From the NCBI GenBank assembly GCA_020051695.1, contig JAGVQM010000012.1:132361-196360 (forward strand): a DNA stretch of 64,000 nt, in the 5' to 3' direction. This stretch comes from Candidatus Zixiibacteriota bacterium. GTDB lineage: Bacteria > Zixibacteria > MSB-5A5 > WJJR01 > JAJRUJ01. Position numbers and translations under genes: made by a program. Below the pieces are notes generated by a model that worked only from the letters and a program-made list of their open reading frames with translations, was not told where the DNA came from and searched no databases. Below are positions 28,256 to 61,007 of this stretch, piece after piece (positions within the stretch are counted from its first letter, which is position 1; the number at the start of each line of letters is the position of its first letter).

Positions 28256-28707
28256 GACGGCATCCTGTCGTTTTGCGGCAGCACGTCCTCGCGTATGACG
28301 ATCACCCGCTCGCGATCGCCGGTCCGCTCGAACTCAATGTGCCAGCGGAAGGGGAACTCCAGCTCGGGCAGGTTTCCGGCCCATTCGACCAGCACCACGG
28401 TCTGCCCATCATCACAAGCATCCAGCCCAAAATCGACGATCTCCCCGCTCGAACGCACACGATACAAATCAAGGTGGCATACGCGCAGGCGTCCCTGATA
28501 GAGATTTAACAGACTATACGTGGGTGAGACAATGTGTTCCTGAATGCCCAACGCCCGGCCAACGCCCCGGACCCATACTGTCTTGCCCGCGCCCAGTGGC
28601 CCGGTAAGGCCGACCCAGTCGCCGGGAACCAGCGACGCGGCAAATGCAGCAGCGAAGTCTGCGGTCTGTTCCGGCGAAGTGCTGACCAGACGTTCTGTCG
28701 TGCTCAT
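28252..28707 (-). CDS. tsaE: tRNA threonylcarbamoyladenosine biosynthesis ATPase TsaE
   Basis: About 151 aa. Walker A is LTGPLGAGKTVWVRGVG, then HIVSPTYSLLNLY and HLDLYRVRS, and the VLVEWAGNLPE strand typical of TsaE. The start overlaps the stop of the PorX-type regulator gene by 4 nt, so tsaE translation is tied to the regulator gene. Confidence 0.95.
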   Translation of the reverse strand: MSTTERLVSTSPEQTADFAAAFAASLVPGDWVGLTGPLGAGKTVWVRGVGRALGIQEHIVSPTYSLLNLYQGRLRVCHLDLYRVRSSGEIVDFGLDACDDGQTVVLVEWAGNLPELEFPFRWHIEFERTGDRERVIVIREDVLPQNDRMPS

Positions 28708-30263
28708 CTTGGTTCGAGGGTCGCCACGGGCAATACCATTTCGGGCAGACTGATCCCCCCGTGCTGGAATGTCCCGGCAAACCGGCGCTGGTATTCGTTG
28801 AATTGCGTGGGATAGACAAAAAAGAAATCTTCCTTGGCGATCAGATACGATGTCGAGATCGTAAACGTCGGCAGGCGGTATTCTTCCGGATTGCGGATCA
28901 GCATCGATTCCTTGGGTTCGCCGTTTAAGTTGTCGCCGTATTTGTACCGCAGGTTGGTCGAGGAATCCTTGCGGGCGCGGGCAACGGTGCCGCGCGTCCC
29001 CAGAATACTGCCGTGATCGGAGGTGACCACGACCACACAATCCTGCCGCGCCAACTGCCTGAGGACTTTGAACCAGGAGGAATTGGTGAACCAGGTTTTC
29101 ATTAGATCGCGAAACGCGCCCTGATCGGGGGCCAGCTCGCGCAACAACTCCGATTCCGAGCGGCCATGGGTCAGGTTGTCCACGAAGTTGTAGACGACCG
29201 ACAACAGCGGCGCATTGGCATACGTGCCCACTTTTTTGGCCAGCCGGTCACCTTCTTCCTGGTCGAGGACTTTGACATATTTTGCCTCGGGTTTCAGCCG
29301 AATCCCCAGCCGGGCGAGCTGTTCGTCGAGCAATTGACGTTCAAGGCGGTTGCGGGAATATTCGTCCTTGCTGCCGATCTGCCACAATTCCGGGTGCAGG
29401 CGTTTGACATCGGCCGGGTATAACCCGGAAAAAATGGCGTTACGGGAAAACGGCGTAGCCGAGGGCAAAATCGAAAAGTAATGTTCGCGGCGGACATTGA
29501 AATATTCGGCCACTTCCGGTTCGATATGCAGCCATTGATCCAGACTCATACAATCGATGACAAAGAAAAACACCTGCCGGCCCGCTTTCAGGTGCGGCGC
29601 AACCCAGCGCGGGACGACATCGACCGACAACGGCGGGCGGGCGGCAGCGTCATTCACCCAGTCGAGATAATTTCTTTCGACGTACTTGCCAAATTCCGCG
29701 GACCACTGGCGATGGTGCTCCAGCCGGATATCATCCAATCCCAGATTGGGAAACCGCGCAATATCGAGGTCCCACTGCGACAGCTTGAGATGGACATCGA
29801 TCCAGTCCCCCCAGGCCATTGGGCCGTAGAGTCTTTGTTGCAATTGGGCCAGGTCGGCGGCGTACTGGCGCGAGAGGTGTTCGGTTTGAATTTTGCCGGA
29901 ATGGAGGTGCCGTTTGATGACCGAAAGGATCTGTGAGGGGTTGACCGGTTTGGTCAGATAATCGTCGATTTTTTTGCCGATCGCCTGCTCCATTAAATGT
30001 TCTTCCTCGGACTTGGTCACCATGACCACGGGCAGGTTCGGGGCGATGTGTTTAATCTCCTCCAGCGTCGAAAGCCCGTCGCGGCCGGTCATCATTTCGT
30101 CCAGCAGCACCAGGTCATACCGGTTGTTGGCGATCAATTCGAGCGCCTCATCACCGCTGGTCGCCCCGCTGACCAGATAACCGCGCTCCCGCAGGAACAT
30201 CATATGCGATTCGAGGTGATCGATTTCATCGTCGACCCAGAGGATACTGTTTGTTTCCGGCAT
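28704..30263 (-). CDS. porX: response regulator with PglZ domain (PorX-type)
   Basis: 519 aa. Residues 1-120 are a receiver domain with WVDDEID, phospho-acceptor Asp55 in DLVLLDEMM and Lys105 in YLTKPVNP. After a helical linker, residues ~200-510 form a PglZ domain of the alkaline-phosphatase fold with metal-ligand motifs FFFVIDCMSLDQW, ILPSATPFSRNAIFSGL, VVVTSDHGS and TFQHGG. In Bacteroidota the same architecture is PorX, which controls type IX secretion. A histidine kinase gene lies 36 bp upstream. The symbol is by architecture only; no type IX genes are visible here. Confidence 0.85.
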   Translation of the reverse strand: MPETNSILWVDDEIDHLESHMMFLRERGYLVSGATSGDEALELIANNRYDLVLLDEMMTGRDGLSTLEEIKHIAPNLPVVMVTKSEEEHLMEQAIGKKIDDYLTKPVNPSQILSVIKRHLHSGKIQTEHLSRQYAADLAQLQQRLYGPMAWGDWIDVHLKLSQWDLDIARFPNLGLDDIRLEHHRQWSAEFGKYVERNYLDWVNDAAARPPLSVDVVPRWVAPHLKAGRQVFFFVIDCMSLDQWLHIEPEVAEYFNVRREHYFSILPSATPFSRNAIFSGLYPADVKRLHPELWQIGSKDEYSRNRLERQLLDEQLARLGIRLKPEAKYVKVLDQEEGDRLAKKVGTYANAPLLSVVYNFVDNLTHGRSESELLRELAPDQGAFRDLMKTWFTNSSWFKVLRQLARQDCVVVVTSDHGSILGTRGTVARARKDSSTNLRYKYGDNLNGEPKESMLIRNPEEYRLPTFTISTSYLIAKEDFFFVYPTQFNEYQRRFAGTFQHGGISLPEMVLPVATLEPR

Positions 30264-30299
30264 ATTTTTTCCGCCTTTGACTGTGCGTCTCCGCCCCGA

Positions 30300-31646
30300 T
30301 TATGGTACACCGGCCCCGCCGGTTTGTTTGGCCGGAATTTTACCGGGCTTGTTCCCGGCAGTCGTGTCGATGATCGGCAATTCCACAACAAATTCCGTTT
30401 GTTCGTGCGGCACGCTGCGGGCCAGATAAATCCGCCCGGCATGGTATTCGGCCACGATGCGGCGGGACAGGGTCAGCCCCAGCCCCCACCCCCGCTTTTT
30501 GCTGGTATGTCCGGGCGAAAATATTTTTTTCTGCTCAGCCGTCGGGACCCCGCGACCGTTATCCGATACTTTGATGACCGCGACATCACGCAGGTCGTTT
30601 TTTTCCAGGGACACGGCAATCCGGCCGGTCCGTGGGTCCACCGCCTCGAGCGCATTTTTGATCAGGTTTTCCAGGACCCAGCCCAGCAATTCGGCATTGA
30701 CCCTGGTTTCCACCGGGTGATCGCACGAGGCGGATATCGTGGCCCCTTTGCCCCGAAACGGCATCCGCGCCTGGAAATATTCCACGGTGCCGCAGACAAT
30801 CTCCCGCAAATCGACCGTGGTCTTGGTCGGTTCGGAACCAATCAAACCGAAACGGTTGGCGACCTGCTCCAGACGATGTGTATCGGCCAGCATCCGCGCG
30901 ATGATATCATCAAAGCTGTTCCCCTGCTCGGCCTGCATGGTAATTTTCCCCTGACGGCTGCGCTCGCGGAAAATCTCCAGCCACCCCAGCAGCGAGGACA
31001 GCGGCGTCCCCAGTTGATGTGCTGTTTCCTTGGCCATGCCGACCCAGATGTACCGCTGTTCGGCCCGTTTCAGATTGCGAAAACCGATATAGGCAATCAA
31101 CAAAAACAGGACGACCAGCCCGACTTCGAGAAACGGTAACAACCGCAAATTGCGGATCAGACGGTAATTGCCGTAATGGATGTAATGCAGCAACTGCCCC
31201 TGATATTCGATGGGCACGGGCGGATAGTATTCATCCATCGCCGCCACGATTCCACGGACCCGTTCGATGTCCCGCGGGCTGCGGCTGGAATCGGAATCGA
31301 CGACCCCGTCCAGCTCGCGCCAGTGCATGGGATTATTGCCCGGGTCGGTGACCACCAGCGGGAACGACCGTTTCTGAATGATCTGCTCAAAGAGGAAGCC
31401 GGTGACCGCCTCGGATTGCGACTCGACCGCCTCGCGCCATTGCTCGGCATAGTTGTTGGCCATGCGCCGTTCGGCGGTCTTGAGCTGCCCGACGACTTCC
31501 TGAGTGTAATAGGCCAGTACCCCGGCGATGACCGCAATACCGAAAATCAAAAAGCCCTTGAACCATAAGGGCAACCCGGTATATCCCGTGGGGTCGTGAA
31601 ACACCAGCCAGCCGTGGTTGAGCAGACTTTTTCGCGACATTGCCAT
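30300..31646 (-). CDS. membrane sensor histidine kinase
   Basis: 448 aa. Two membrane helices (~29-46 and ~169-189) flank a periplasmic sensor segment of ~120 residues with no recognised domain. There is no clear HAMP or PAS. The phospho-acceptor is His210 in KETAHQLGTPLSS. The kinase core has NLIKNALEAV (N box), VSDNGRGVP (G1) and RGWGLGLTLSRRIV (G2). It directly precedes the PglZ response regulator and is the likely partner. Confidence 0.92.
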   Translation of the reverse strand: MAMSRKSLLNHGWLVFHDPTGYTGLPLWFKGFLIFGIAVIAGVLAYYTQEVVGQLKTAERRMANNYAEQWREAVESQSEAVTGFLFEQIIQKRSFPLVVTDPGNNPMHWRELDGVVDSDSSRSPRDIERVRGIVAAMDEYYPPVPIEYQGQLLHYIHYGNYRLIRNLRLLPFLEVGLVVLFLLIAYIGFRNLKRAEQRYIWVGMAKETAHQLGTPLSSLLGWLEIFRERSRQGKITMQAEQGNSFDDIIARMLADTHRLEQVANRFGLIGSEPTKTTVDLREIVCGTVEYFQARMPFRGKGATISASCDHPVETRVNAELLGWVLENLIKNALEAVDPRTGRIAVSLEKNDLRDVAVIKVSDNGRGVPTAEQKKIFSPGHTSKKRGWGLGLTLSRRIVAEYHAGRIYLARSVPHEQTEFVVELPIIDTTAGNKPGKIPAKQTGGAGVP

Positions 31647-33058: not shown

Positions 33059-35383
33059 TCAGGATTCCGATCCCGATTTCGATGGTTCGTACATCGGTGG
33101 ATCGGCCATGCGATAAGTCGGCACCAGCTCGACCAGCCCGCGCCGGGTCGCGACCCGGTCACCGGTCCGGGCAATCTCGAGCAATTTTTCGACGCGCTCG
33201 GTCAAATCTTCAGGCGGCGGCGGGTCATCCGGGGCAATCATGATTTTCGGATGTGCGGACGGCCGCCCGGCGGCGCCGTTTTCGAACAATACCTCGTCGA
33301 GTTTTTCCCCGGCACGCAAGCCGGTGATTTTAATTTCAATATCGACATCCGGCGTCAGCCCCGACAGGGTCACCAGGTCGCGGGCCAGCTCGATGATCCG
33401 TACCGGCTCACCCATATCCAGGACCATAATGTCCCCCGTCCGGCCCAGGGCCGCCGCCTGGACCACCAGCAGCGCCGCTTCGGTACAGGTCATGAAATAC
33501 CGCGTGACCTCCGGATGGGTGACGGTCACCGGGCCGCCCGCCGCGATCTGGCGGCGGAATAACGGTACCACCGAGCCCTCGCTGCCTAATACATTGCCGA
33601 ACCGCACGGCCACCACTTTCATCGGCGAGCCGTGGGCGTACATGCCGCCGATCATCTCCGCGGCACGTTTGGTCGCGCCCATGACGCTGCGCGGATGGAC
33701 CGCCTTGTCGGTCGAGATCAGCACAAATGCGCGCACGCCGACCCGTCCGGCCCAATCCAATAAAAACGATGAGCCGCCGATATTATTGAGCACCGCCGCA
33801 TCGGGATGTGCTTCCATCAAGGGAACCTGCTTGTATGCCGCCGCATGAAAAATGATCTCCGGCGGCGTTTTGGATAACAATCGCTCAAACCGCGTGCCGT
33901 CGCAGATATCAGCGACAAATACCCGGAACGGCAGGTGCGGATACAGGCGGCGCAGCTCGTCGGCCAGATCATGCAGGCCATTTTCCGAGCGGTCGACCAG
34001 ATCGACCCGCGACGGTGAAAACCGGTGCATCTGCCGCACCAGTTCCGAACCGATCGAACCCGCCGCACCGGTGATCATCACCGCACGATTTTGCATAAAT
34101 TCGGCGATGCGCGGCGTATCCAACACTACTGCCTCACGGCGCAGCAAATCCTCGACGCGCACATCACGCAATTGATGAACGCTGACCCGTCCGCCGATGA
34201 GCTCTTTCAGCACCGGCACGGTCTTGAACTCGACATCGATCTTGCGGCAGTTGGTGACAATCCGCCGCATCTGCGCCCCGGTCGCCGAGGGAATGGCGAT
34301 GAGCACTTGGTCGATGCCGTAACGGCTGACCACGGGAGAAATTTCATCGGTGGTCCCCAGCACCGGGACGCCGTGCAGGCGGGTGCCCCGCTTGGCCGGG
34401 TCGTCATCGATCAGCCCCACCGGCCACTGGTTGAGGTCGGGGTTTTTTTTCAATTCCCGGATAATCATTTCCCCGGCATCACCGGCGCCTATAACCAGCA
34501 CACGCTGCCCCGTGCGGAAAAAGCGCGGGGTGAACTCACGCAGCCCCCGGATGAGAAAACGTGAACCGCCGAGAAAAACGATCAACAAAAACCATTCAAT
34601 GATAAATACCGAGCGCGGGTACCCTGCCGCCTGCGCAAAAAATACCGGCAATACCAGAAAACCGGTGCCCACACTCACGGCTTTAACGATGGATAACAAA
34701 TCATTGATCGAAGCGTACCGCCACAGCCCCCCATATAACCGAAAATACAGCAGGGCAGCAGTCCGAATGATAATCACCAGCGGCAGCGTGTTATAGAAAA
34801 GCGAGAAATGATCGGCCGGGATCCCGCCATCGAAACGCAGCCAGAACGCCAGGTAATAGGCCAGGATAATCAACACCAGGTCGCTGACCAGGATCAGCAG
34901 CCGCCGGCGATAGGTCCCCTCCCACGCGCCGGTTTCGGGGCCCGGCGCCGGGTCATACCGGCGAAACACCCACCAGCGCGGCGCTCCGAGAAACAAGATC
35001 ATGACCGCCCAGTACCCCAAAAGAATCCCCCGCGTGGAGGAAACCGGGTCCACCGGATCAAATGTCAGGACGGCAATGACCAGCGTGCCGAAGGTCACCG
35101 CGTTGAATACACGGGTGATTTCCCGAAACGGAGTAGTCACTGTACGGTGGCGATACAGACCGAACAGACCGAACAACAGCATCCAGCCGATGGTCAGATA
35201 TAGCGCGGGGACAGCATGCTCGATTAACGTAAGGTTTTCCCCGGCCGGCGGACTCAGCCATGCCGATTTATATCGCGCCCAGTATACCAGAGCGAGGGAC
35301 AGCTGCAGGGCCAGCATATCCCAGACCACCCACCATCGGATTGTCCTGACTCGCCCCGTCTTGTCCGCGTTTGCATCCATCAT
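33059..35383 (-). CDS. membrane nucleotide-sugar 4,6-dehydratase (CapD/FlaA1 family) with an extra N-terminal membrane module
   Basis: About 774 aa, while the family is usually ~600-650. There are two successive four-helix membrane modules: residues ~15-130 (sugar-transferase-like, with ALYLTIGWMLLFGLFGLYRH) and ~160-290 (the usual CapD type, with YYLAFWLRFDGG and FRLYGGLWRYAS). A first Rossmann domain follows (VLVIGAGDAGEMI), then the dehydratase SDR domain with MITGAAGSIGSELV, AAYKQVPLMEAHP and STDKAV..SVMGATKRAAEM (Met/Lys active site). It likely makes UDP-linked 4-keto-6-deoxy sugars for glycans. Confidence 0.9.
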   Translation of the reverse strand: MMDANADKTGRVRTIRWWVVWDMLALQLSLALVYWARYKSAWLSPPAGENLTLIEHAVPALYLTIGWMLLFGLFGLYRHRTVTTPFREITRVFNAVTFGTLVIAVLTFDPVDPVSSTRGILLGYWAVMILFLGAPRWWVFRRYDPAPGPETGAWEGTYRRRLLILVSDLVLIILAYYLAFWLRFDGGIPADHFSLFYNTLPLVIIIRTAALLYFRLYGGLWRYASINDLLSIVKAVSVGTGFLVLPVFFAQAAGYPRSVFIIEWFLLIVFLGGSRFLIRGLREFTPRFFRTGQRVLVIGAGDAGEMIIRELKKNPDLNQWPVGLIDDDPAKRGTRLHGVPVLGTTDEISPVVSRYGIDQVLIAIPSATGAQMRRIVTNCRKIDVEFKTVPVLKELIGGRVSVHQLRDVRVEDLLRREAVVLDTPRIAEFMQNRAVMITGAAGSIGSELVRQMHRFSPSRVDLVDRSENGLHDLADELRRLYPHLPFRVFVADICDGTRFERLLSKTPPEIIFHAAAYKQVPLMEAHPDAAVLNNIGGSSFLLDWAGRVGVRAFVLISTDKAVHPRSVMGATKRAAEMIGGMYAHGSPMKVVAVRFGNVLGSEGSVVPLFRRQIAAGGPVTVTHPEVTRYFMTCTEAALLVVQAAALGRTGDIMVLDMGEPVRIIELARDLVTLSGLTPDVDIEIKITGLRAGEKLDEVLFENGAAGRPSAHPKIMIAPDDPPPPEDLTERVEKLLEIARTGDRVATRRGLVELVPTYRMADPPMYEPSKSGSES

Positions 35384-35584
35384 TGATCCCGGCTCCCAAG
35401 CCAAGTACGTATTATACAGGCTCGAACCGAATTCGCAAAATCTTTTACCCGGCACGGAGCGCCGTCAATTACGGGAAGTCTTTATATTGTATTGGCTTAT
35501 GTATTATATGTGGGGCGCACACAGGGGAGAGCAAACAAATGAGATAATGGCCGATTGACTGCAAACGCCCGGGCTTTTGCACGA

Positions 35585-37018
35585 TCACGACACAGTCGGA
35601 ATGCGCCCGGTAATCGAGAATTTTCCGGTCTCATTCCGGCCAAGCTCTGCAGACTCAGGGCTTTCCGCCAGGGCCCGCGCGACCTCGGCCGTAATAATCC
35701 GCCGTTTGGCAAGCTGGCCCAGGGACGCATCGAGACTATGCATGCCGACCGCGCCCCCCGTCTGGATCATCGTGGGAATCTGGTTGATCTTCATATCGCG
35801 GATGACCGCGCGGACCCCGGAGGTCCCGACCAGGACCTCAGTAGCCACGACCAGCCCGCTTTTATCCGCACGGGCAACCAATCGCTGGCAGATAATCCCG
35901 CGCAGCCCTGCCGCCAACTGCACCGCGGCCTCCTGCCGTTGCGCCGGGGGAAACAAGCCCAGAATGCGATGGATAGTCTGCATGGCGTTCGAGGTATGCA
36001 GACTGGTCAGGACCAGGTGCCCGGTCTCCGCGGCGGTGAGCGCCACCGACAGCGTCTGACGATCGCGGATCTCGCCGATGAAGATGACATCGGGGTCCTG
36101 CCGCAACAGGTTTTTCAAACCCGCATCGAACGAGTGGGTATCGGCGCCTACTTCACGCTGCTTGATGATTGACCGTTTGCCCTGGTGCAAAAACTCGATC
36201 GGGTCTTCCAGCGTAATAATTACTTTACGGAATTCACTGTTGATCAGGTCGATCATCGAGGCCAGGGTCGTGCTTTTCCCGACATTGGTGGGACCCGCGA
36301 CGATGACCAACCCGTCGGGCAGCCGGGCCAGATCGGCGACCACCGAGGGCAGGCCGAGGCGTTCGATGGGTTTGATTTCCAGATCGATCGCGCGATAGGT
36401 GGCCTCCACAGCCCCCTGCTGATAATGGACATTGACCCGCCAGCGGCCGATGCCCGGAATGGTCAGGGCATAATTCGCCTCCCGCTCGGCTTCGAAACGC
36501 CGGATCTGGTCGTTGTCCATCACCGAATAAATCAACAGCCGGACATTGGCTTCCGAAAGGGGATCGGCCTTCATGGGGAACAACTCTTTCTGGATGCGCA
36601 AAATCGGCGGCCGGTTCACCGCCAGGTGCAAATCCGATGCATCTTTTTCCACCATGGCCGAGAACAGCTGGACAATGTCGATCGAGGAAATATGGCGGCG
36701 GATCGTCTCTTTGGTCACCGGGTCCATCTCGCCGAATTCCACGCCGACAAAATAGCCCTCTTCACCGGCTTCTGAGATATGCACCGCGCGCCCGGAAAAT
36801 TGCAGGGTCAACGGCGGTTCACTCAGGGGCAGAGAAAACTGCAGGGCAGCCCCCACCGGCAGTTTATCCGCGGTGAAAAAGCGCAAACCGCTGAAGGAAA
36901 CATCATTTGTCCGACCGGAAATTACCTGATCCTGGCCGGCCAACCGAAAACTCAACGAATATTCGGTTTTAATTCGGCGTTCACCGCGTTTTTCATTACC
37001 CCAGAACTCCGGCTGCAT
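35585..37018 (-). CDS. PilZ-PilT fusion: c-di-GMP-binding domain plus pilus retraction-type ATPase
   Basis: About 477 aa; the ATG at 37018 sits 9 nt after GGAGG, better than the ATG at 37027 which touches it. The N-terminal ~100 residues are a PilZ domain with RGERRIKTEY (RxxxR-type) and NDVSFSGLRF ([DN]xSxxG). The rest is a PilT/PilU ATPase: DASDLHLAVNRPP, Walker A GPTNVGKSTT, ITLEDPIEFLH, the LRQDPDVIFIGEIRD Walker B region, and TGHLVLTSLHTSNA. The usual PilT P-loop GPTGSGKST is changed to GPTNVGKST but keeps the key residues. c-di-GMP control of pilus retraction is inferred. Confidence 0.9.
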   Translation of the reverse strand: MQPEFWGNEKRGERRIKTEYSLSFRLAGQDQVISGRTNDVSFSGLRFFTADKLPVGAALQFSLPLSEPPLTLQFSGRAVHISEAGEEGYFVGVEFGEMDPVTKETIRRHISSIDIVQLFSAMVEKDASDLHLAVNRPPILRIQKELFPMKADPLSEANVRLLIYSVMDNDQIRRFEAEREANYALTIPGIGRWRVNVHYQQGAVEATYRAIDLEIKPIERLGLPSVVADLARLPDGLVIVAGPTNVGKSTTLASMIDLINSEFRKVIITLEDPIEFLHQGKRSIIKQREVGADTHSFDAGLKNLLRQDPDVIFIGEIRDRQTLSVALTAAETGHLVLTSLHTSNAMQTIHRILGLFPPAQRQEAAVQLAAGLRGIICQRLVARADKSGLVVATEVLVGTSGVRAVIRDMKINQIPTMIQTGGAVGMHSLDASLGQLAKRRIITAEVARALAESPESAELGRNETGKFSITGRIPTVS

Positions 37019-37209
37019 CGCGATCATCCTCCATGGAACAACAACGGAACTCGGCCTGCTGTATTACATCCATATTCATCAGTATCGGAAGATTGCCGGG
37101 TGCGATTAATGGGGCGAACCCGGCGAGTTTCGTGATCCACCGATGGGTTTTTCTGATTTATGGCTGCCGGATTTATCTCGCAGGACTGACGAAGGACCCT
37201 GCCACCCGG

Positions 37210-38214
37210 TCAAGGGAACAAATCATACGCCGTGCCGGGCCCGGCATCACGGCCGCCGGCCATATCGACTGCATCTTTTCGGCTCAGATGGCGCGCGCAT
37301 AAGCCGGTTTCTCGCAATCGCGCTGCCAGCTCGGGGAAGCCGTGAAAGGTGAAGACCGTCCGTGCGCCGGTTTTTTGAATGTACTGGACAAGTTGAGGAT
37401 AATCGGCATGGTCCGAAAGCGGCAGCACCAGGTCCGCCCCCGAACGGCGGGGAACTCGGTCCAGCGCCCACCCGGTAAGAAAAATGGTGTACGGGTTACT
37501 GATTTGCCGCCATTCCCGAGATTGCGGCACACCCGGCGGCATAACGACGACTTTGTCCCGCAGTTTTTGCGGCGAAAACAATTCGGCGCCCGCCAGCGGG
37601 ATCCCATGCGCGCGATAAATCAGGACTGCGTCATAAATCAAACGGTGACAGGCGAAAGCAAACCCCTGCTGCGCCAGCAGCGCCATGGCCTCCTGCGCCT
37701 TGCCTAGGCCATAGGCCAAGAGCACCGGCGTCAATCCCCGGACAAAGACTCGTTTGATTGTCGTCACCAGCAGATCAACGGTCTGTTCAACGGGCGGAAA
37801 CACATACCCCGGCCGGCCGTAGGTCGCCTCGATAATCAGCGTATCACAAGCCGGGGCCGCCGCCGGCGGTGTCGTTTTGCCTCCTGCAGGTTTCACATCT
37901 CCGGTATAGAGGACCCGGTGCCCGTCGATGACCAGCAGAATCTGCGCCGAACCGAGGACATGGCCCGCATCGAATAACGTCACCTGAATCCCCTCGATCT
38001 CGATTGTTTGGCCGATCTCCGGCGTTATTGTCTCGGTCCGGCCGAAGCGCGCGCAGGCCAGCTCGGCGGTTGCGGTTGTACACAGTATGCGGTGGTGGCG
38101 CCCGCAATGATCGGCGTGAGCGTGAGAGGCGAAAGCGAATCGTTCGGGGCGGACCGCATCGAGAACGAACGGCACACCGCTGATGCGCAGACCATTTTGC
38201 AGAGAGAGTATCAT
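37210..38214 (-). CDS. MBL-fold exonuclease-like hydrolase (beta-CASP-type)
   Basis: About 334 aa. The zinc motif is ASHAHADHCGRH (HxHxDH), with AGHVLGSAQI, VLYTGDVKPAGG and a DTLIIEATYG strand, followed by a helical insertion and LPLSDHADYPQLV plus a final FTFHGF. This matches metallo-beta-lactamase nucleases of the YSH1/DNA-repair exonuclease type. No ligase gene is adjacent. An in-frame ATG at 38253 lies inside the mobile-element-like repeat, so 38214 is preferred even though no Shine-Dalgarno precedes it. Confidence 0.85.
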   Translation of the reverse strand: MILSLQNGLRISGVPFVLDAVRPERFAFASHAHADHCGRHHRILCTTATAELACARFGRTETITPEIGQTIEIEGIQVTLFDAGHVLGSAQILLVIDGHRVLYTGDVKPAGGKTTPPAAAPACDTLIIEATYGRPGYVFPPVEQTVDLLVTTIKRVFVRGLTPVLLAYGLGKAQEAMALLAQQGFAFACHRLIYDAVLIYRAHGIPLAGAELFSPQKLRDKVVVMPPGVPQSREWRQISNPYTIFLTGWALDRVPRRSGADLVLPLSDHADYPQLVQYIQKTGARTVFTFHGFPELAARLRETGLCARHLSRKDAVDMAGGRDAGPGTAYDLFP

Positions 38215-38225
38215 TGCCGGAGGGG

Positions 38226-38398
38226 AGTGTTGAAAAACCTCACCATATGACATTTGATGTCATCGCGAGGAGTCCCGCCATCAGGCGGGACGACACGGCG
38301 ATCTCGATGTCGCCCATAGATATCATCGACGTGTGAGATTGCTTCGTCCCGCTCAAAAGCGGGACTCGCAATGACGATTTTTGGACCTTTTCAACACT
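38226..38398. repeat. MITE-like palindromic element with 11-bp terminal inverted repeats
   Basis: AGTGTTGAAAA at 38226-38236 and TTTTCAACACT at 38388-38398 are perfect terminal inverted repeats. Inside, the left arm (GTCATCGCGAGGAGTCCCGC and on to GGCGATCTC) and the right arm (GAGATTGCTTCGTCCCGC and on to GGGACTCGCAATGAC) are imperfect complements. Each arm has its own hairpin (CCCGCCATCAGGCGGG, CCCGCTCAAAAGCGGG). The arms match the widespread GTCATTGCGAG/GCAATCTC repeat family. It encodes no protein. Confidence 0.75.
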
Positions 38399-46184: not shown

Positions 46185-46871
46185 TTATTTCGCCGCTCGA
46201 TTGTATTCACCAAGGATACCGAGTACCTCGTCATGACCATTAAGGGCGGCCCAATGCATTGCTGTCCGTCCCTCGCGGTCTCTGGCGTCAACATCGGCCC
46301 CGGCGGCCAGCAGCATGGTCACGGCCTGCTCATGGCCGTTTAACGCGGCCCAGTGCAAGGGCGTCCGGCCTTCGCGGTCGCGGGCACCGGGGTTGACACC
46401 GCCTTCAAGGAAAATCCGCATGACTTTATGATGCCCGTTCAATGCCGCCCAATGCAGGGGTAACCGGCCTTCCTGGTCGCGCGCGCCCGAATCGGCGCCC
46501 CCGGCCAGCAACAATTCGACCGATTTTTCATGCCCATTCAGCGCGGCCCAATGCAACGGCGTTCGGCCTTCACGGTCTCGCGCTTGCACCACGGCATGGT
46601 GCGTCAGCAGTATTTTCAGTGTGTTGTTATGGCCGTTCAATGCGGCCCAATGGAGCGGTGTCCGGCCCTCATTATCCTCGGCATTCACTGCAGCGCCTTG
46701 TTCGAGCAGGACTTCCACAATGCGGTCGTGCCCGTTAAGCGCCGCCGAATGCAGGGGTGTTCGTCCCTCGGCATCTTTAGTTTCTTCAGCCCAGTGCCGT
46801 GGTTCGGCCGCCTGGGCGATGCTTACTGAAAACAAACAGACGATATACCAAACCAAAGCCCTGGTTTTCAT
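46185..46871 (-). CDS. secreted ankyrin-repeat protein
   Basis: About 228 aa; ATG at 46871 with GGAGGAA upstream. A signal peptide (VWYIVCLFSVSIAQA) precedes six 33-residue ankyrin repeats, nearly all containing EGRTPLHWAALNGH. The uniformity of the repeats suggests recent internal duplication or gene conversion. Secretion and the repeats suggest a protein-binding role in the periplasm or outside. No other domain is present. Confidence 0.9.
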   Translation of the reverse strand: MKTRALVWYIVCLFSVSIAQAAEPRHWAEETKDAEGRTPLHSAALNGHDRIVEVLLEQGAAVNAEDNEGRTPLHWAALNGHNNTLKILLTHHAVVQARDREGRTPLHWAALNGHEKSVELLLAGGADSGARDQEGRLPLHWAALNGHHKVMRIFLEGGVNPGARDREGRTPLHWAALNGHEQAVTMLLAAGADVDARDREGRTAMHWAALNGHDEVLGILGEYNRAAK

Positions 46872-47096
46872 CGTCAATTCCTCCACAAGTCACTTTCGTT
46901 CATTATGGTTTAACATACGGCAGTACGTGGCGAAAGTTTCGGCGCCACGGCGGATGACACCACCCCTTCCGGCATTCTCAGACCTGATTCCGTTTCGAGA
47001 GACAACCCTCAAAACGCTTGAAAATCAATATGTTATGCGAATAAACGCAAACCTGACAAATAAATGGACATGCCGGTCGGTATATGTGTGGAGTAC

Positions 47097-52932: not shown

Positions 52933-54669
52933 ATGGCTGATCAAACGACAACACAGGGGAAAAAACCGGGGGGCACGGGGAATCCGTTTCCGCGGCTGGG
53001 CGACCTGCTTTTAACACACAAGCTCATCACCGAAGACGAGTTGCGAGAAGCGCTCGCCCAGCAGCAAGCGACCGGCCGTCGGTTGGGCGAAATCCTGACC
53101 AGTTCCGGGCGCATTTCACCCCATGAACTGGTGGAAATTCTCTCCGAACGGCTGGGAATTCCCAAAATCGGGATCGAGGGGATGATCGCCGATCCGGAAG
53201 TGGTCAATGTTATCCCCCTGCGCATCGCCAAGAAATACCAGGTCGTGGCCTTGTTCAAGATCAATGGGCGGCTCACCGTGGCCATGGCCGACCCACTGGA
53301 CATGGTAGCCATCGATGAAATCCGGTACCAGACAGGTTTGACCGTCAACCGCGTCATCGCCGCCCCCGCCGATATTGATGAAGCCATCACCCGCTTTTAT
53401 TCGGTGGCCGACTACGTTGAACGCGTCATTCACGATTCGGCAAACGCTATTGCTGCAACCGGCGGCGCCGGCGATGCGGAAGAGACGCCGGTGGTCCGGC
53501 TAGTCGATGTGTTGCTCTCCGAGGCGATAAAACAAAAGGCCTCGGATATGCATGTCGAACCCCTCGACGGGGGGCTCCGCGTACGTTTTCGCGTCGACGG
53601 CGTCCTGCATGAAGAGGCCGAACCGCCCGCCCGGCTGCATACCGCCATTGTCTCGCGCATCAAGGTCCTGTCCTCGATGGACGTTTCGGAGAAACGGCTT
53701 CCGCAGGACGGCCGCTTTGCTGTGGGCGCCGGGCCGACAGCGGTGGACATGAGAGTCTCCACGATCCCCACCATCCATGGAGAAAAAGTGGTCATCCGTA
53801 TCCTGGGCCGCCAGGGGCATGATTTACAACTGGAGCATCTGGGGTTATCCCGAACTCAACTGCACCTGCTGAAAAACGAAATCCGGGCGACCGAGGGGAT
53901 GATCCTGATCAGCGGGCCGACGTCCAGCGGAAAAACCACGTCACTTTATGCCGCATTACGGGAAATCACCACGCCGGAAAAAAATATCGTCACCGTTGAA
54001 GACCCGGTGGAATATGCCTTACCATTGATCAACCAGGTCCAGATTAATGAGAAGGCGGGGTTGACTTTTCCCGCCTGCCTTCGGGCCTTTTTGCGTCAGA
54101 ATCCTGATGTGATTATGGTCGGCGAGATCCGCGACGGCCCCACGGCCCAGATCGCCATTCGTGCGGCCATGACCGGGCATCTGGTCCTTTCCACGATCCA
54201 TACCATAGACGCCGCCTCCGCGCCCTACCGGTTGGTCGATATGGGGGCCGAACGCTATCTGGTCGCCACGGCCATCCGAGCGGTCCTCGCCCAGCGGCTG
54301 GTCCGCCGTCTGTGCGCCAAATGTGCCGAACCGACTACACCGTCGGAAATACTCCGTGAACAATTGGGGTTCGATGCGCTGGCCGGCGCGGGAAGCTGGC
54401 GCCGCGCGGTCGGCTGCCAGGCCTGCCGGGGGACCGGGTATTCCGGCCAGATCGGCATCTACGAGTTATTCGCGGTGGACGATACTATCCGCAGCATGAT
54501 CACCGAGGGTTCAGGCACCACACAATTGCGCGAACACTTGCGCACCAGGCCGGGCTTTTCCGACCTGCGCGCTCAGGCGCGGTCCCTGGTCGCCGATGGA
54601 GTGACCACCGCCGAAGAGGTCATCCGCGTTATCCCGCGGCGCGCGGAAGTCTGGGAGACAATTGCCTGA
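52933..54669 (+). CDS. type II secretion/type IV pilus assembly ATPase (GspE/PilB family)
   Basis: 578 aa. N-terminal T2SSE_N domain (LGDLLLTHKLITEDELREAL to ~160), then the ATPase: ASDMHVEPLDGGLRVRFRVD, Walker A ISGPTSSGKTTS, Asp box VTVEDPVEYALP, Walker B LRQNPDVIMVGEIRD, His box GHLVLSTIHTIDA. Two cysteine pairs, CAKC and CQAC, form the GspE zinc finger before GYSGQIGIYELF. It energises pseudopilus or pilus assembly. It heads the secretion cluster. Confidence 0.95.
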   Translation: MADQTTTQGKKPGGTGNPFPRLGDLLLTHKLITEDELREALAQQQATGRRLGEILTSSGRISPHELVEILSERLGIPKIGIEGMIADPEVVNVIPLRIAKKYQVVALFKINGRLTVAMADPLDMVAIDEIRYQTGLTVNRVIAAPADIDEAITRFYSVADYVERVIHDSANAIAATGGAGDAEETPVVRLVDVLLSEAIKQKASDMHVEPLDGGLRVRFRVDGVLHEEAEPPARLHTAIVSRIKVLSSMDVSEKRLPQDGRFAVGAGPTAVDMRVSTIPTIHGEKVVIRILGRQGHDLQLEHLGLSRTQLHLLKNEIRATEGMILISGPTSSGKTTSLYAALREITTPEKNIVTVEDPVEYALPLINQVQINEKAGLTFPACLRAFLRQNPDVIMVGEIRDGPTAQIAIRAAMTGHLVLSTIHTIDAASAPYRLVDMGAERYLVATAIRAVLAQRLVRRLCAKCAEPTTPSEILREQLGFDALAGAGSWRRAVGCQACRGTGYSGQIGIYELFAVDDTIRSMITEGSGTTQLREHLRTRPGFSDLRAQARSLVADGVTTAEEVIRVIPRRAEVWETIA

Positions 54670-54711
54670 TGAGTCAGGATTTCGCGGAACTGTCTCACTG
54701 GGATGCCAAAC

Positions 54712-55923
54712 ATGCCCACATTTAACTATCAGGCGGCCAATCACCAGGGCGCGATGTCCAAAGGGCGGGTCACCGCCGTGTCGGTGGACCAGGCCGGTGA
54801 ACAATTGAAAGAACTGGGGTTAATCCCGCTGGAGTTAAAGCCGGTCAAATCGTCGGCCGCTGCATGGTCTCGCGGACGGCGGGGTCCACACTGGTCAATC
54901 GAAGAAAAAATCCTTTTTACCCGCAAATTTTCCTCACTCATCAAAGCGGGTATCCCTCTGCTGACGGTAATCGAGATGATCAGCCGGCAGTCTCCCTCGC
55001 CGCAGATTGCCGGGGCGTTGTCCCGGGTGGGGGACTCCATTGCCAACGGCAATACCCTGCACGGTTCGCTGACGGCTTTCCCCAGTCTGTTCGACGCCAT
55101 TTACCTGGGAACGGTCCGGGCCGGCGAGGCCACGGGACAACTGGACGGCGTCCTGGATCACCTGGCCGAATTCCTCGAGCGCGAAATGGATACCCGCCGC
55201 AAAATCAAGGAAGCCCTGCGCTACCCAATAATGGTGGTCGCGGCTATCATTGCCGCCGCTGTCGTCGTGCTGAAATTCGTCGTGCCGCAGTTTACGGCCT
55301 TCTATCAAAATTACGGGGGGACCCTCCCGGCCCCGACGCGGGCCCTGATGTTTGCCTCGGAACTGGCCGGCACGTTGTGGTGGCTGATCTTTCCCCTCGG
55401 CGGGCTGGCTTGGGCCGGCTGGCGGTGGATAAACCATACGCCCCGGGGCCAATTATGGCGCGACACCCGGCTTTTGAAATTACCCCTGGCGGGAATGTTG
55501 ATTGTAAAAATCGCGGTCAGTCGGTTTGCCCGATTATTCAGCGTTTTATTCTCTGCCGGCGTTCCCGCAACCATGGCGCTGGAAACGGCGGCCGAGGGCG
55601 TCGGCAACCGAGTCGTGGCCGATGAAGTGGCCGAAATGGGCCGGCGAATGGCTGCGGGGGGGGCAATCATCACCACCTCGTCTGCAGCGGTCATCCCCAA
55701 CCTGGTGTACCAGATGATCGACATCGGTTTCGAGTCCGGTGAAGTCGACCGCATGCTGCTGGAGGTCGCCCGGCATTATGAACAGGAAATCGACTACGAT
55801 GTGCGGAAGATTACCGACCGGCTGCAACCGTTCCTCCTGTTGTTTCTGGCCGCCGGGGTCCTGGGTCTGGCCATGGCGGTGCTCCTGCCGCTGTGGAACC
55901 TGACCACGCTGTTCAAGCCGTAG
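54712..55923 (+). CDS. inner-membrane assembly platform protein (GspF/PilC family)
   Basis: About 403 aa. Two T2SSF domains, residues ~65-190 (FTRKFSSLIKAGIPLLTVIE, then FLEREMDTRRKIKEALRYP) and ~270-395 (ARLFSVLFSAGVPATMALE, then EQEIDYDVRKITDRLQPF), with three membrane helices. It couples the ATPase to the pilin base. The ATG at 54712 is chosen because homology starts MPTFNYQA; an in-frame ATG at 54703 is possible. Confidence 0.93.
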   Translation: MPTFNYQAANHQGAMSKGRVTAVSVDQAGEQLKELGLIPLELKPVKSSAAAWSRGRRGPHWSIEEKILFTRKFSSLIKAGIPLLTVIEMISRQSPSPQIAGALSRVGDSIANGNTLHGSLTAFPSLFDAIYLGTVRAGEATGQLDGVLDHLAEFLEREMDTRRKIKEALRYPIMVVAAIIAAAVVVLKFVVPQFTAFYQNYGGTLPAPTRALMFASELAGTLWWLIFPLGGLAWAGWRWINHTPRGQLWRDTRLLKLPLAGMLIVKIAVSRFARLFSVLFSAGVPATMALETAAEGVGNRVVADEVAEMGRRMAAGGAIITTSSAAVIPNLVYQMIDIGFESGEVDRMLLEVARHYEQEIDYDVRKITDRLQPFLLLFLAAGVLGLAMAVLLPLWNLTTLFKP

Positions 55924-56044
55924 GGCCACATTCAGTAAACAAAAAAACTCGTCCTTTCGTCGCACGTGGACCGCAAAAGTTGCGCGAGGATTAGCCGATA
56001 AGATTAGTAAGATTGAGCGGTGCTGTTAAACTGAAAACGGGGTT

Positions 56045-56050
56045 TATAAT
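56045..56050 (+). promoter_or_regulatory. -10 element upstream of the first pilin gene
   Basis: A perfect TATAAT 18 bp before the pilin ATG, with a weak upstream -35 candidate. It could give the pilin mRNA its own promoter inside the cluster. The implied leader would be only about 11 nt. Confidence 0.35.
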
Positions 56051-56067
56051 CAAAAGGGAGTGGCAAC

Positions 56068-56505
56068 ATGAAAGTCATGCGTCATACCTTGCGTAACCAA
56101 TCAGGGTTTACTCTGATCGAACTCGTCATCATCATCGTTGTTCTGGGTATTCTCGCCGCGGTGGCGATCCCCAAGTATTTTAACATGATTGATGATGCAA
56201 AAGTATCGGCGTGCAAAGGCGCGCTCGGCGGGTTGCGCTCCGGAATTTCTATTTATTATGCTAATCGGGCATTGAAGACCGGCACGGCAACCTGGCCGGC
56301 GAGGGATTCACTGCGAACCATCGGTGTGGTCATGGAACAGATTATTCCCAAGAATCCATATCAAGCGTCCGGTAATGCACCGGATTCGATCGTTACCGGA
56401 GTCACCAGAGGCGTCATCGTGGGCAGCCGTGGCGGATGGGCTTATAAACCCTCCACAGGGGAAATCTGGGCTAATACTTCGGTCGCCGGCGAAAACAACT
56501 TTTAG
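56068..56505 (+). CDS. type IV pilin/pseudopilin (GspG-like)
   Basis: 145 aa; AAAGGGAG precedes the ATG. A short basic leader then the prepilin signal SGFTLIELVIIIVVLGILAA with Gly at the cleavage site and Glu5. The helix continues through VAIPKYFNMIDDAKVSACKG. The globular part has a small beta region (GVIVGSRGGWAYKPSTGEIWANT). Likely the major subunit of the system, judged by size and position. Confidence 0.9.
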   Translation: MKVMRHTLRNQSGFTLIELVIIIVVLGILAAVAIPKYFNMIDDAKVSACKGALGGLRSGISIYYANRALKTGTATWPARDSLRTIGVVMEQIIPKNPYQASGNAPDSIVTGVTRGVIVGSRGGWAYKPSTGEIWANTSVAGENNF

Positions 56506-56542
56506 CCGGTGCTTCATACAGGTCTGACCGAGGGTGACCCAC

Positions 56543-56989
56543 ATGACTGCAGGGAAAAGACCACTGGAGGCGCTCGCCGCAGGCGGTTTCACGCTGATCG
56601 AGTTGGTCATCGTCATTCTGGTCCTCGGGATTCTTTCGGCGGTGGCCATTCCGGTAATCGGGTCCTTTTTGACCTCCTCGAAGGAAACGGCCACCAAAGA
56701 CGAAATGCGCCGCCTCGCGGTTGCCATCGCCGGGGCCGACGCTGCGACCGACCGGGGATTTGAAGGGGATGTCGGCTTTCCGCCCTCCGCGCTGGCCGAT
56801 CTGGTAGCCAAACCCGATACGCTGGCGGCGTACAACCCCTATCAGCACATCGGCTGGAACGGCCCATACATCGACGGGTCCGGAGGAGAATACAGCACCG
56901 ATGCCTGGGGGCAGGCCTATGTGTATGATCCCTCCGCGCGGACCATCTCCAGCGTTGGGGCGGGCGATACTATTACCATTAGTTTCTAA
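56543..56989 (+). CDS. pseudopilin (GspG-like)
   Basis: About 148 aa; GAGGGTG precedes the ATG at 56543. The prepilin motif is AGGFTLIELVIVILVLGILS. The C-terminal part has GFPPSALADLV, WNGPYIDGSGGEYSTDAWG and YVYDPSARTI, like GspG-type major pseudopilins with the Pro-Tyr and DAWG signatures. It lacks a long extension, unlike the next gene. Confidence 0.9.
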   Translation: MTAGKRPLEALAAGGFTLIELVIVILVLGILSAVAIPVIGSFLTSSKETATKDEMRRLAVAIAGADAATDRGFEGDVGFPPSALADLVAKPDTLAAYNPYQHIGWNGPYIDGSGGEYSTDAWGQAYVYDPSARTISSVGAGDTITISF

Positions 56990-57001
56990 GGACGGTCGTT
57001 G

Positions 57002-58168
57002 ATGGCCTGCTGCAAGCGCAAGAGTAATCAGGAGCACGGTTTCACCCTGATGGAAGTCCTGGTCGTGGTGGTGATCCTCGGCATTCTCTCCTCTGTCGCG
57101 CTCCGCGCCGTCCAAAACGGCGTTGAAAGTTCGCGGATCAAGGAAACGCAAAACGAGATGCTCAACCTGGCGCAGGCCATCGCCGGGAACCCCGACCTCT
57201 ACGCCGGCGGGTTGCGTTCCGATTTCGGGTACATCGGTGATGTCGGCGCGTTGCCGGGCAGTCTCGATAACCTGATCACCAATCCCGGCAGCTTCACCAC
57301 GTGGAACGGCCCTTACGTCGGCGGGCGGTTTGCCGAAGATGCGGACGGTTTCAAAAAAGATGCCTGGGGCAATATCTACGCCTTTTCCGGCGGGATCACG
57401 ATCGCTTCGACCGGGGGCGGCAGTACACCGCTGACCACTTCGGTCGCGGCCGCAGCCACGGACTTAACCAGTACACCCGTAGCCGGGACGATCACCGACG
57501 CGGTGGGCAACCCCCCTGGTGACTCCTCGGTGGCGGTTTCGGTAGTCATTACCTACCCGGACGGCTCGGGGAGCACGACAACCTCCAGCACAAACCCTTC
57601 TTCAGGCGGCCTGTTTTCCTTTGCCGGGATTCCGGTCGGCATTCGGTCGATCGCGGCGGTCTATCGGGCCACCGATGATACGGTCGCCGCTTTCGCGGCG
57701 GTTCTACCCCGGACCGGGGCCACGGTAAGTCTCAGATTGCCGGGCAGTCCCTTTGCCGGGGGCGGGGGCGGTGGTGGCGGCGGCACACCCGGATCAATTG
57801 AATATGTTCCCGGCTCGGCAGGAGTCGGCTGGCCGCTGGCCGATGACGTGGAATTTGATATCACCAACCCCGGGACGACGGGAGTGACGGTCACTTCGTT
57901 GCTTGCCAACTACAGCACCGGGGGATTTTTTCGCAGGATTAAATGGAATGGCTCGACGGTCTTCGATGAAAACAGTCCGCGGGCAGGAAGCGGTGATACC
58001 TGTCCGTTCACGGCGGCTCAGACATTGGCCGCCGGCGCGACAGTTACCATTGAACTGGAAAATTTCACCTGGTGGGACTTTGGCGGCCCACCCGCGGACA
58101 TGTCCAACACTGATTTTACAATCACATTTTCCGAAGGGACGTCGGTCAACTTCAACAGCGGATCATGA
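57002..58168 (+). CDS. large pseudopilin with extended C-terminal domains
   Basis: About 388 aa, more than twice a normal pseudopilin. After the prepilin motif (HGFTLMEVLVVVVILGILSS) and a GspG-like head with WNGPYVGGRF and KKDAWGNIYAFSGG, there is a carboxypeptidase-regulatory-like beta domain (~155-240, VAVSVVITYPDGSG, FSFAGIPVGIRSI). A run of nine Gly follows (FAGGGGGGGGGTPG). A last beta domain (~265-388) includes a WWDFGGPP turn. This may be a tip or adhesin-like subunit. A TTG at 56999 is an alternative start. Confidence 0.85.
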   Translation: MACCKRKSNQEHGFTLMEVLVVVVILGILSSVALRAVQNGVESSRIKETQNEMLNLAQAIAGNPDLYAGGLRSDFGYIGDVGALPGSLDNLITNPGSFTTWNGPYVGGRFAEDADGFKKDAWGNIYAFSGGITIASTGGGSTPLTTSVAAAATDLTSTPVAGTITDAVGNPPGDSSVAVSVVITYPDGSGSTTTSSTNPSSGGLFSFAGIPVGIRSIAAVYRATDDTVAAFAAVLPRTGATVSLRLPGSPFAGGGGGGGGGTPGSIEYVPGSAGVGWPLADDVEFDITNPGTTGVTVTSLLANYSTGGFFRRIKWNGSTVFDENSPRAGSGDTCPFTAAQTLAAGATVTIELENFTWWDFGGPPADMSNTDFTITFSEGTSVNFNSGS

Positions 58169-58206
58169 CCTACCTGATCTCGCTTATCGACGAACGTATG
58201 TGAGTG

Positions 58207-59919
58207 ATGGATAGCAGGCCAACAGAACTCTGGACCGTGCCCCGACAGGAGGTCATTCAGCCGGGGCTGACCGCCGGGGAGGACTATGCCCGGTCTTCAG
58301 CCGGCCATCCCAATACAGAAACACCTGAGCGAGGTCCGACGACCATTTTGCAGTGGGTCCGCCCCGGTAAAAGGAATCTTGGCCGGCAAACACTCGGCAT
58401 GGAATTCGACGGCCGCCGCCTGAGTATCGTGGGCCTGTGGGCCGCAGGAACGCACCGGCGGCTGACCCGGATGTCGATTGTCGAATGGGCTGAGCCGCCT
58501 TCGGCGGAGGTCCTCGTTGAATACCTGCAAGCGGCCGTTCCCCGTGGAAAGCCCAGTGTGCGGCTCACCATTAATTCCTCGCACGGAATTGTCCGGCGGT
58601 TTTATATTCCACGCGTACCTGCCCGAAAACGGCAAGCGGCTGCGTTGTGGGAAGGCAAGCAACTGGTCCCCTTCCCGTTAAACGAACAAAGCGCCTACGT
58701 GGGGATGGAATTTGTTTCGGCCGGCGAACGCGGCTGGCGCGTCACGCTTGTTGCCCTGCCTCGGCAGGATGCCGAGGTCGTCGTGGAGGCCGTCAGAAAG
58801 CTCGGGTGGTACCTGAGCGGGCTGTCCCTGGCCGGGACGTTGCCCTGCCGAAATACCGGGCACAGACCGAGGGCCAAAAACCCTGCACCCGAAGCTGTTG
58901 TGTTTTACTCACCACGACGGAATTCCTTCGCCGTCTTTGATAATGGCCGTCTGGTCTTTCATTACGATCTGGGTCCGCTGCCGGGGTATTCCGCCGACCC
59001 CACCGATTGGATTTTCTCCGATAAGGAGCGGTCAACGGGGTCATGGATTGCAGGCCTCGGCCCGGCCATAAATGATGCCTTCGATTTTTATATTAGTGCC
59101 CAACAGGGAACGCCGCCTTCCCGCCTGACGCTGGCCGGAGTACGGCAGTCGGTCGGAGGAGCTTCCGATCATATCGGCGAGTGGGAGGAACGGTTTACTG
59201 ACGGGATTGATGTCATGGACCCACTTCATGACCTGACCGAGGGCATCCCTGACCATGTGTCCAAATGGATCGATGCCAACATGGGCCTGTTGACATATGC
59301 GGCGATGACTGCATCCATAGTGGCGCCCATAGACCTGACCCCGGCACCGGTCAGGAAACACCAAAGAAACCGCCGGCTGATCACCTGCGCCCGGACGGCA
59401 TTCATCCTGTCGATCATGGGGGCAATCATGGCCACCGGCCTGTTGTTTGAAAAACGACGGACTACAAACCAAGAGGTCGAGACGGCACGCCGGGATTCTC
59501 AAATTCTGGCAACATCCAAGCCGGTCGTCCAGATCACCGCAAATCTCGGCGAATTGGCCCGCCTGCACGCCCGGTTAGCCGAAATTCGCAGGTCCCCGAC
59601 CAAATGGATGCCGTGGACGAAGACCATTCTTGGTACCTTGCCCGCGAACGCTCGGCTGACCGAGTTGGATGCTCAACTTGATCATCAGGATGCCGGTGGT
59701 GCAGCACTGCAGGTCCTCCTGGGCGGTACCTTGTCGACCGACAATCCGCCCCACGCCATCCAGTACAAAGACTGGCTGAAACAACTGGAACTGTTGTCCG
59801 GTCCCGGGCGGGTCAAACTGACCCGGGAGCAGACGACAGTCTGGAAGGGCCGCCAGCGGTCGGCCTTTGCCATCGAACTACAGCCGGAAACCACAACTAT
59901 TACGGGGCCGGGCAAATGA
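58207..59919 (+). CDS. PilM-PilN fusion (GspL-like) assembly protein
   Basis: About 570 aa. The N-terminal half resembles an actin-like PilM/GspL cytoplasmic domain (LGMEFDGRRLSIVGLW, RFYIPRVPARKRQAA, LVPFPLNEQSAYVGME). One membrane helix follows at ~400-420 (TAFILSIMGAIMATGLLF). The periplasmic end resembles PilN (LPANARLTELDAQL, LLGGTLSTDNPP). Such fusions bridge the ATPase and outer parts. The first ~60 residues are extra and unrecognised. Confidence 0.75.
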   Translation: MDSRPTELWTVPRQEVIQPGLTAGEDYARSSAGHPNTETPERGPTTILQWVRPGKRNLGRQTLGMEFDGRRLSIVGLWAAGTHRRLTRMSIVEWAEPPSAEVLVEYLQAAVPRGKPSVRLTINSSHGIVRRFYIPRVPARKRQAAALWEGKQLVPFPLNEQSAYVGMEFVSAGERGWRVTLVALPRQDAEVVVEAVRKLGWYLSGLSLAGTLPCRNTGHRPRAKNPAPEAVVFYSPRRNSFAVFDNGRLVFHYDLGPLPGYSADPTDWIFSDKERSTGSWIAGLGPAINDAFDFYISAQQGTPPSRLTLAGVRQSVGGASDHIGEWEERFTDGIDVMDPLHDLTEGIPDHVSKWIDANMGLLTYAAMTASIVAPIDLTPAPVRKHQRNRRLITCARTAFILSIMGAIMATGLLFEKRRTTNQEVETARRDSQILATSKPVVQITANLGELARLHARLAEIRRSPTKWMPWTKTILGTLPANARLTELDAQLDHQDAGGAALQVLLGGTLSTDNPPHAIQYKDWLKQLELLSGPGRVKLTREQTTVWKGRQRSAFAIELQPETTTITGPGK

Positions 59920-60503: not shown

Positions 60504-60505
60504 CC

Positions 60506-60982: not shown

Positions 60983-61007
60983 ACCGGACCGTTAAAACGA
61001 GTAAACT

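Follow-up and report, generated by a model that had tools for sequence, protein, structure and literature searches.

A PilZ domain joined to a PilT/PilU-family ATPase in one chain in Zixibacteria and Omnitrophota

Direct control of motor ATPases by cyclic di-GMP (c-di-GMP) is known for extension and secretion ATPases with an MshEN domain (excerpts of PMC4624772 and PMC5013675), and retraction ATPases have been dismissed as non-binders of this messenger (excerpts of PMC4624772; a table in PMC10333796). In Xanthomonas campestris, the PilZ protein XC_2249 contacts the retraction ATPases PilT and PilU, and c-di-GMP binding is not needed (excerpts of PMC3749722). A Walker-inactive PilT still supports retraction together with PilU (excerpts of PMC11656802). 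Here we describe a gene in a 64,000-nucleotide stretch of DNA from a Candidatus Zixiibacteriota bacterium (GCA_020051695.1, contig JAGVQM010000012.1, positions 132,361 to 196,360; this whole stretch is called the window). The gene, at 35585..37018 on the minus strand, encodes a protein of 477 residues in which a PilZ domain precedes a PilT/PilU-family ATPase.

Compared with PilT and PilU (6ojy and 9n32), the likeness extends over the whole ATPase half, at 44% and about 39% identity, and the fusion differs by its N-terminal PilZ part of about 115 residues, its separate tree branch and its orphan gene. Like YcgR, VCA0042, BcsA and MotI, which are stand-alone PilZ receptors or PilZ effectors, it has the PilZ fold and both ligand motifs, but in the fusion the PilZ domain leads the chain and a PilT ATPase follows. 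MshE-type ATPases likewise carry an N-terminal c-di-GMP receptor on a T2SSE-family ATPase, although their receptor has the MshEN fold and they belong to the extension class rather than the retraction class (excerpts of PMC4624772 and PMC5013675). The XC_2249 system resembles the fusion in that a PilZ domain acts on retraction ATPases; it consists of two proteins with GGDEF/HD-GYP partners and no need of the ligand, whereas the fusion is one chain (excerpts of PMC3749722). We found no report of a PilZ-PilT fusion in the open-access PMC literature; subscription papers and InterPro architectures, which lay outside the search, may show the architecture uncommented. None is mentioned in the excerpts of PMC11656802, PMC4624772, PMC5013675, PMC10333796, PMC12943098, PMC7288161, PMC8316039 and PMC3749722. 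No open-access PMC paper was found on Zixibacteria with PilZ, and those on Omnitrophota or Omnitrophica with PilZ were unrelated, as judged by title only.

Two domains and their motifs in one reading frame

An earlier note, made from the sequence alone, had claimed that PilZ and a PilT-type ATPase share one chain with both signature sets intact. The translated open reading frame (ORF), Pfam and NCBIfam matches and seven full-length homologues agreed with the first part. From its first ATG the same ORF runs over 35585..37027 (minus strand, 480 residues), and residue numbers are counted from that ATG. A GGAGG, the likely ribosome-binding site (37028..37032, minus strand), precedes the ATG at 37018 with a spacing of 9 nt but abuts the one at 37027 (0 nt), which makes 37018 the likelier start. 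The PilZ domain (PF07238, residues 13-113; 36689..36991, this and the following features on the minus strand) scored 52.3 bits, with the cut-off at 22.5. The ATPase half (residues 118-458; 35654..36676), composed of an N-terminal domain and a RecA-like domain, matched the PilT/PilU family TIGR01420 with 406.1 bits against 319.1, and the Pfam T2SSE match reached 143.1 bits against 24.9. Both family matches are far above chance. MshEN (T2SSE_N, PF05157) was absent from the protein in a Pfam scan at E up to 1.

The signature sets were whole as well. The PilZ part holds RxxxR as RGERR (residues 14-18, 36974..36988, within KRGERR) and DxSxxG as DVSFSG (residues 42-47, 36887..36904). The ATPase half holds Walker A, GPTNVGKST (residues 245-253, 36269..36295), an Asp box, EDPIE (residues 274-278, 36194..36208), Walker B, DPDVIFIGEIRD (residues 311-322, 36062..36097, including GEIRD), and a His box, TGHLVLTSLHT (residues 335-345, 35993..36025), and all eight catalytic landmarks scored below are in place. 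These names of the ATPase motifs follow common usage. The earlier note had named loss of the arginines needed for c-di-GMP as a refuting result; R14 and R18 are both present. Its description of the P-loop as modified was correct in the letters, and the modification does not appear meaningful: GPTNVGKST still fits GxxxxGK[ST]. L003, an unfused PilT-like protein of the host, likewise has N at position 4, and three unfused PilTs have V at position 5; because both letters recur in this way, they are not notable, and we rejected the P-loop as a functional clue.

An AlphaFold2 model was built from an alignment of 65 fused sequences (A5, with L006, the window copy itself, L193 and L234 omitted). It had a mean predicted local distance difference test score (pLDDT) of 91.2 and a predicted template modelling score of 0.87, and placed a PilZ barrel (strands 24-98) and a C-terminal helix (103-115) at once before the first PilT helix (118-127). 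In Foldseek, PilT4 (6ojy_B) matched the PilT part with TMq 0.71, TMt 0.95 and a root-mean-square deviation of 1.2 over 346 columns, and PilU (9n32) matched it with TMt about 0.9; among the 50 matches listed none covered the whole chain, PilT4 and PilU covering the PilT part only. The PilZ domain modelled alone, without ligand, had a pLDDT of 83.7, and its best PDB matches were c-di-GMP-binding PilZ proteins: cellulose synthase BcsA with c-di-GMP, MotI, YcgR with c-di-GMP, and VCA0042. A sequence profile made from the PilZ part also recovered 5vx6 (YpfA/MotI), at E 1.1e-6. The ORF shares 48-55% identity with the seven other full-length fusions of the class and is therefore no assembly chimera.

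Distribution and origin of the fused PilTs

The earlier note held that PilZ and PilT are separate in most bacteria and suggested tracing the spread of the fusion, which proved uncommon. Among 146 relatives, eight genomes had a match extending into the PilZ start, and a class-wide profile search (132 genomes) returned the same eight carriers, from three families: the host (G000) and G001, which belong to one family, and G015, G049, G029, G035, G040 and G056. PilT matches with in-frame stops that ran back into the PilZ model (e.g. G055, G064 and G071) might have pointed to neighbouring PilZ and PilT genes and were not counted; at L035 (G055), the sole such locus inspected, the upstream ORF is not PilZ and resembles a biotin carboxyl carrier protein, as seen by eye with no domain scan. 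A wider-taxonomy sample of 386 genomes around G148 contained five carriers, G148 included. Across 84,980 species genomes, a scan restricted to a single peptide pattern, and hence an undersample, detected the fusion in two Omnitrophota loci (L086, L087) and, with a frameshift, in the Tectomicrobia genome of L085; in the phylum of the latter, one of five genomes carried it. The Tectomicrobia copy (L085:5851-7900) is split by a frameshift or an assembly error, and its His box reads ATFAAANA. In Omnitrophota, 49 of 384 genomes had a match at E <= 1e-45, and 54 of the 59 match rows, in 46 genomes, covered the PilZ start, some genomes carrying two copies. Thirty Omnitrophota fusion genomes (e.g. G472, G522, G400 and G417) have 4-27 PilT-family matches each, an unusual expansion.

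Trees were built on the PilT half alone (residues 117-458, PilZ excluded), with 50 fused, 25 unfused and 25 unfused Omnitrophota rows after identity thinning; the frameshifted L085 was omitted. One branch parted the 50 fused from the 50 unfused rows, with a support of 98 in the quick tree and 100/98 in the careful tree, where it was present in 100% of 200 bootstrap trees. The window copy and G001 were joined at 100/99 in the careful tree. The quick tree also held the eight Zixibacteria copies together (99), a grouping not among the starred sets listed for the careful tree. A single branch is what one fusion event predicts; the sampling sets a limit here, because the search for fused rows started from fused seeds and could have passed over an unfused relative nested within the clade. 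These results indicate that the fused PilTs make up a coherent subfamily that is widespread, apparently arose once and is common in Omnitrophota.

Catalytic decay and a proposed c-di-GMP-gated retraction

The host encodes both a canonical retraction system and enzymes of c-di-GMP metabolism. Its assembly contains six T2SSE-family ATPases, four PilZ matches, five GGDEF matches (one partial; two loci inspected carry GGEEF and GGDEF) and four HD-GYP-type matches (two inspected carry the HD and GYP motifs); no EAL domain was found in it. On contig C32, pilB, pilT and pilC (named by inspection) are adjacent, followed by a PilS-like kinase; this PilB bears an MshEN domain, and the canonical pilT is intact. 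The fusion is thus a further PilT, apart from this operon. Our preferred reading, at a probability of roughly 0.55, is that the window protein acts as a PilU-like accessory ATPase for retraction, a member of the PilT/PilU family gated by c-di-GMP within its own chain; a function that depends on c-di-GMP is likely. A ring of fusion subunits, presumably a hexamer, would carry up to six receptors, one per subunit. c-di-GMP from the diguanylate cyclases of the host would attach to the RxxxR loop at the N-terminus and to the PilZ barrel and thereby re-orient PilZ on the helix that leads straight into the first PilT helix. This movement may bias the ring in its ATPase cycle, its docking on the platform protein PilC or its pairing with canonical PilT. 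The likeliest outcome would be that the level of the messenger governs pilus retraction with no separate adaptor in between.

The catalytic state of the family bears directly on this proposal. Eight landmarks (Walker A, E274, D275, E278, E319, R321, H337 and H344) were scored in 67 fused ORFs, which include all 54 full-span Omnitrophota rows except L246 and also include L234 (partial PilZ); L243 (cut by a contig end), L246 (its alignment ended before residue 430) and the frameshifted L085 were excluded. The unfused set fell from 69 to 65 after removal of duplicates and L243. All eight landmarks were kept in 14 of the 67 fused copies versus 61 of the 65 unfused PilTs. Losses fell on R321 (44), D275 (28), H337 (22), H344 (9), E319 (4), E274 (4) and Walker A (1), and the P-loop and three glutamates were kept in 61/67. 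R321, D275 and H337 are presumed to take part in catalysis. On the tree, the fused clade showed at least five changes of catalytic state and at least nine of PilZ state. Many Omnitrophota fused copies lacked secondary catalytic residues, and so did some unfused paralogues there: in fusion-bearing Omnitrophota genomes the landmarks were whole in 28/32 best-scoring unfused PilTs, 8/20 lower-scoring ones and 4/9 long paralogues. The lower-scoring set weakens catalytic loss as a mark of fusion. The arginine of GExRD (R321), missing from those 44 fused copies, was lost in 0/65 unfused PilTs and 0/61 further unfused Omnitrophota ORFs. Decay is thus a habit of extra PilTs in Omnitrophota, and R321 loss alone is specific to fused copies in the sets compared.

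Among these unfused paralogues, the long ones at L299-L303 have 531-577 residues, a C-terminal extension of roughly 180 residues and degenerate His boxes; a canonical PilT ORF was found next to the long one at each of these five loci except L301, and T2SSE was the sole Pfam match in the one scanned. Another unfused Omnitrophota group (L288, L290-L292 and L294-L297) mostly has EEPIE, GNIRD and TGVLV for EDPIE, GEMRD and TGHLV and, going by these letters, is a group of probable pseudo-ATPases.

Within the host's own family the decay has reached the P-loop. G001, the nearest relative (56% identical), reads AGG---GDSTTL opposite AGPTNVGKSTTL of the window copy, an in-frame 9-nt deletion that together with further changes cost the lysine, and its His box has H337 replaced by R and H344 by P; the PilZ motifs, EDPIE and GEIRD are retained. 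Columns invariant in the other seven copies were altered in PilZ (7/20), the N-terminal PilT domain (10/41) and the ATPase domain (27/110) alike, so the relaxation in G001 is general. Between the window copy and G001, nonsynonymous divergence (dN, 0.26-0.41) was well under synonymous divergence (dS, 1.2-1.5). Between the close orthologues of G056 and G040 (dN 0.011-0.017, dS 0.09-0.16), all three domains are under purifying selection.

To judge from the residues lost, G001 and four Omnitrophota copies lacking E274 or E319 probably have an ATPase half that no longer works or works slowly, and a regulatory pseudo-ATPase would be left. Extended to the window protein, this gives the strongest alternative, in which the fused subunit joins or blocks canonical PilT rings, brings c-di-GMP control and powers no retraction, the window copy being an early stage and G001 further along. 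The retention of PilZ motifs in G001 beside the loss of its P-loop lysine and both His-box histidines, the excess of landmark and R321 losses in fused over unfused copies, and the whole canonical pilT of the host would all fit. Every landmark is whole in the window copy, though, most of the family keeps the P-loop and three glutamates, the like decay in unfused Omnitrophota paralogues is not fusion-specific, and G001 is a single metagenome-assembled genome. We regard this explanation as possible and clearly the less probable for the window protein.

Several observations nevertheless weigh against c-di-GMP-gated retraction. Because catalytic residues are lost in relatives, ATP hydrolysis may be dispensable for some function of the family. 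The fast change in G001, PilZ included, suggests possible whole-gene decay in that family. The fusion gene is not close to pil genes, and its neighbours point to no particular pilus. The strict PilZ motif was kept in 51/67 fused copies and missing from 16. Finally, PilZ could be a protein-contact module, since XC_2249 acts without c-di-GMP binding (excerpts of PMC3749722). Taken further, the last two points would make PilZ a module on which proteins dock, a GGDEF or HD-GYP protein for instance, with ligand binding incidental. Such a role seems unlikely, as RxxxR and [DN]xSxxG are strict in all eight Zixibacteria copies even though the window PilZ is just 48% identical to that of G001 and on average 32% to the other six.

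Gene neighbourhood and meaning of the fusion

Upstream of the fusion gene lies a metallo-beta-lactamase/RMMBL fold protein (37210..38253, minus strand, Pfam) and downstream a Polysacc_synt_2 nucleotide-sugar epimerase/dehydratase (33059..35455, minus strand, Pfam). The order metallo-hydrolase, fusion, polysaccharide epimerase and serS (the last by inspection) is common to the window and G001. The five other Zixibacteria loci examined had unlike neighbours, none matching the window's secretion genes. Twenty further loci were searched by BLAST with 12 reference proteins, a search that diverged small pil genes would escape: one (L317) had an unfused PilT within five genes, L310, L311 and L313 had a stand-alone PilZ gene nearby, and L310 also had a weak match to an MshEN/DUF4388 protein in its neighbourhood. 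An operon logic was rejected, as no neighbour recurs and, outside the window and G001, only close relatives have neighbours in common.

Elsewhere in the window, a set like that of type II secretion systems or type IV pili lies at 52933-62300 (by inspection, a GspE-like ATPase, GspF-like, pseudopilin-like and PilM/PilN-like proteins and a secretin). At 28704-31646 a response-regulator ORF adjoins a sensor-kinase ORF (PorX-like regulators by inspection), and at 46185-46886 an ankyrin-like protein has nearly identical EGRTPLHWAALNGH repeats. In the host genome, the gene of L003, another PilT-like ATPase (L305:5445-8596, contig C14 of G000), overlaps an MshEN and DUF4388 gene by a few bases; the pair may amount to a second PilT linked to c-di-GMP, split over two chains. 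That the fused ring serves a machine other than type IV pilus retraction, such as the secretion-like operon at 52933-62300 or an unknown one, is improbable: the orphan gene without pil neighbours and the two genes kept beside it in G001 would suit it, but the TIGR01420 match is above cut-off, the branch stands next to ordinary PilTs, and the genes beside the fusion in the window and in G001 are not seen again in the other families.

With a natural PilZ-PilT chain, one purified protein would suffice to ask if c-di-GMP controls retraction and by what means. The natural series from intact copies (the window copy and those of six other Zixibacteria) to the P-loop-less G001 provides a way of telling ATPase work and a regulatory role apart. 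For the family as a whole, we see about even odds that the fusion marks a PilT subfamily of single origin, present in Zixibacteria, Omnitrophota and at least one member of Tectomicrobia, in which c-di-GMP would act on the retraction ring within the chain, several lineages becoming c-di-GMP-responsive pseudo-ATPases that may control canonical PilT.
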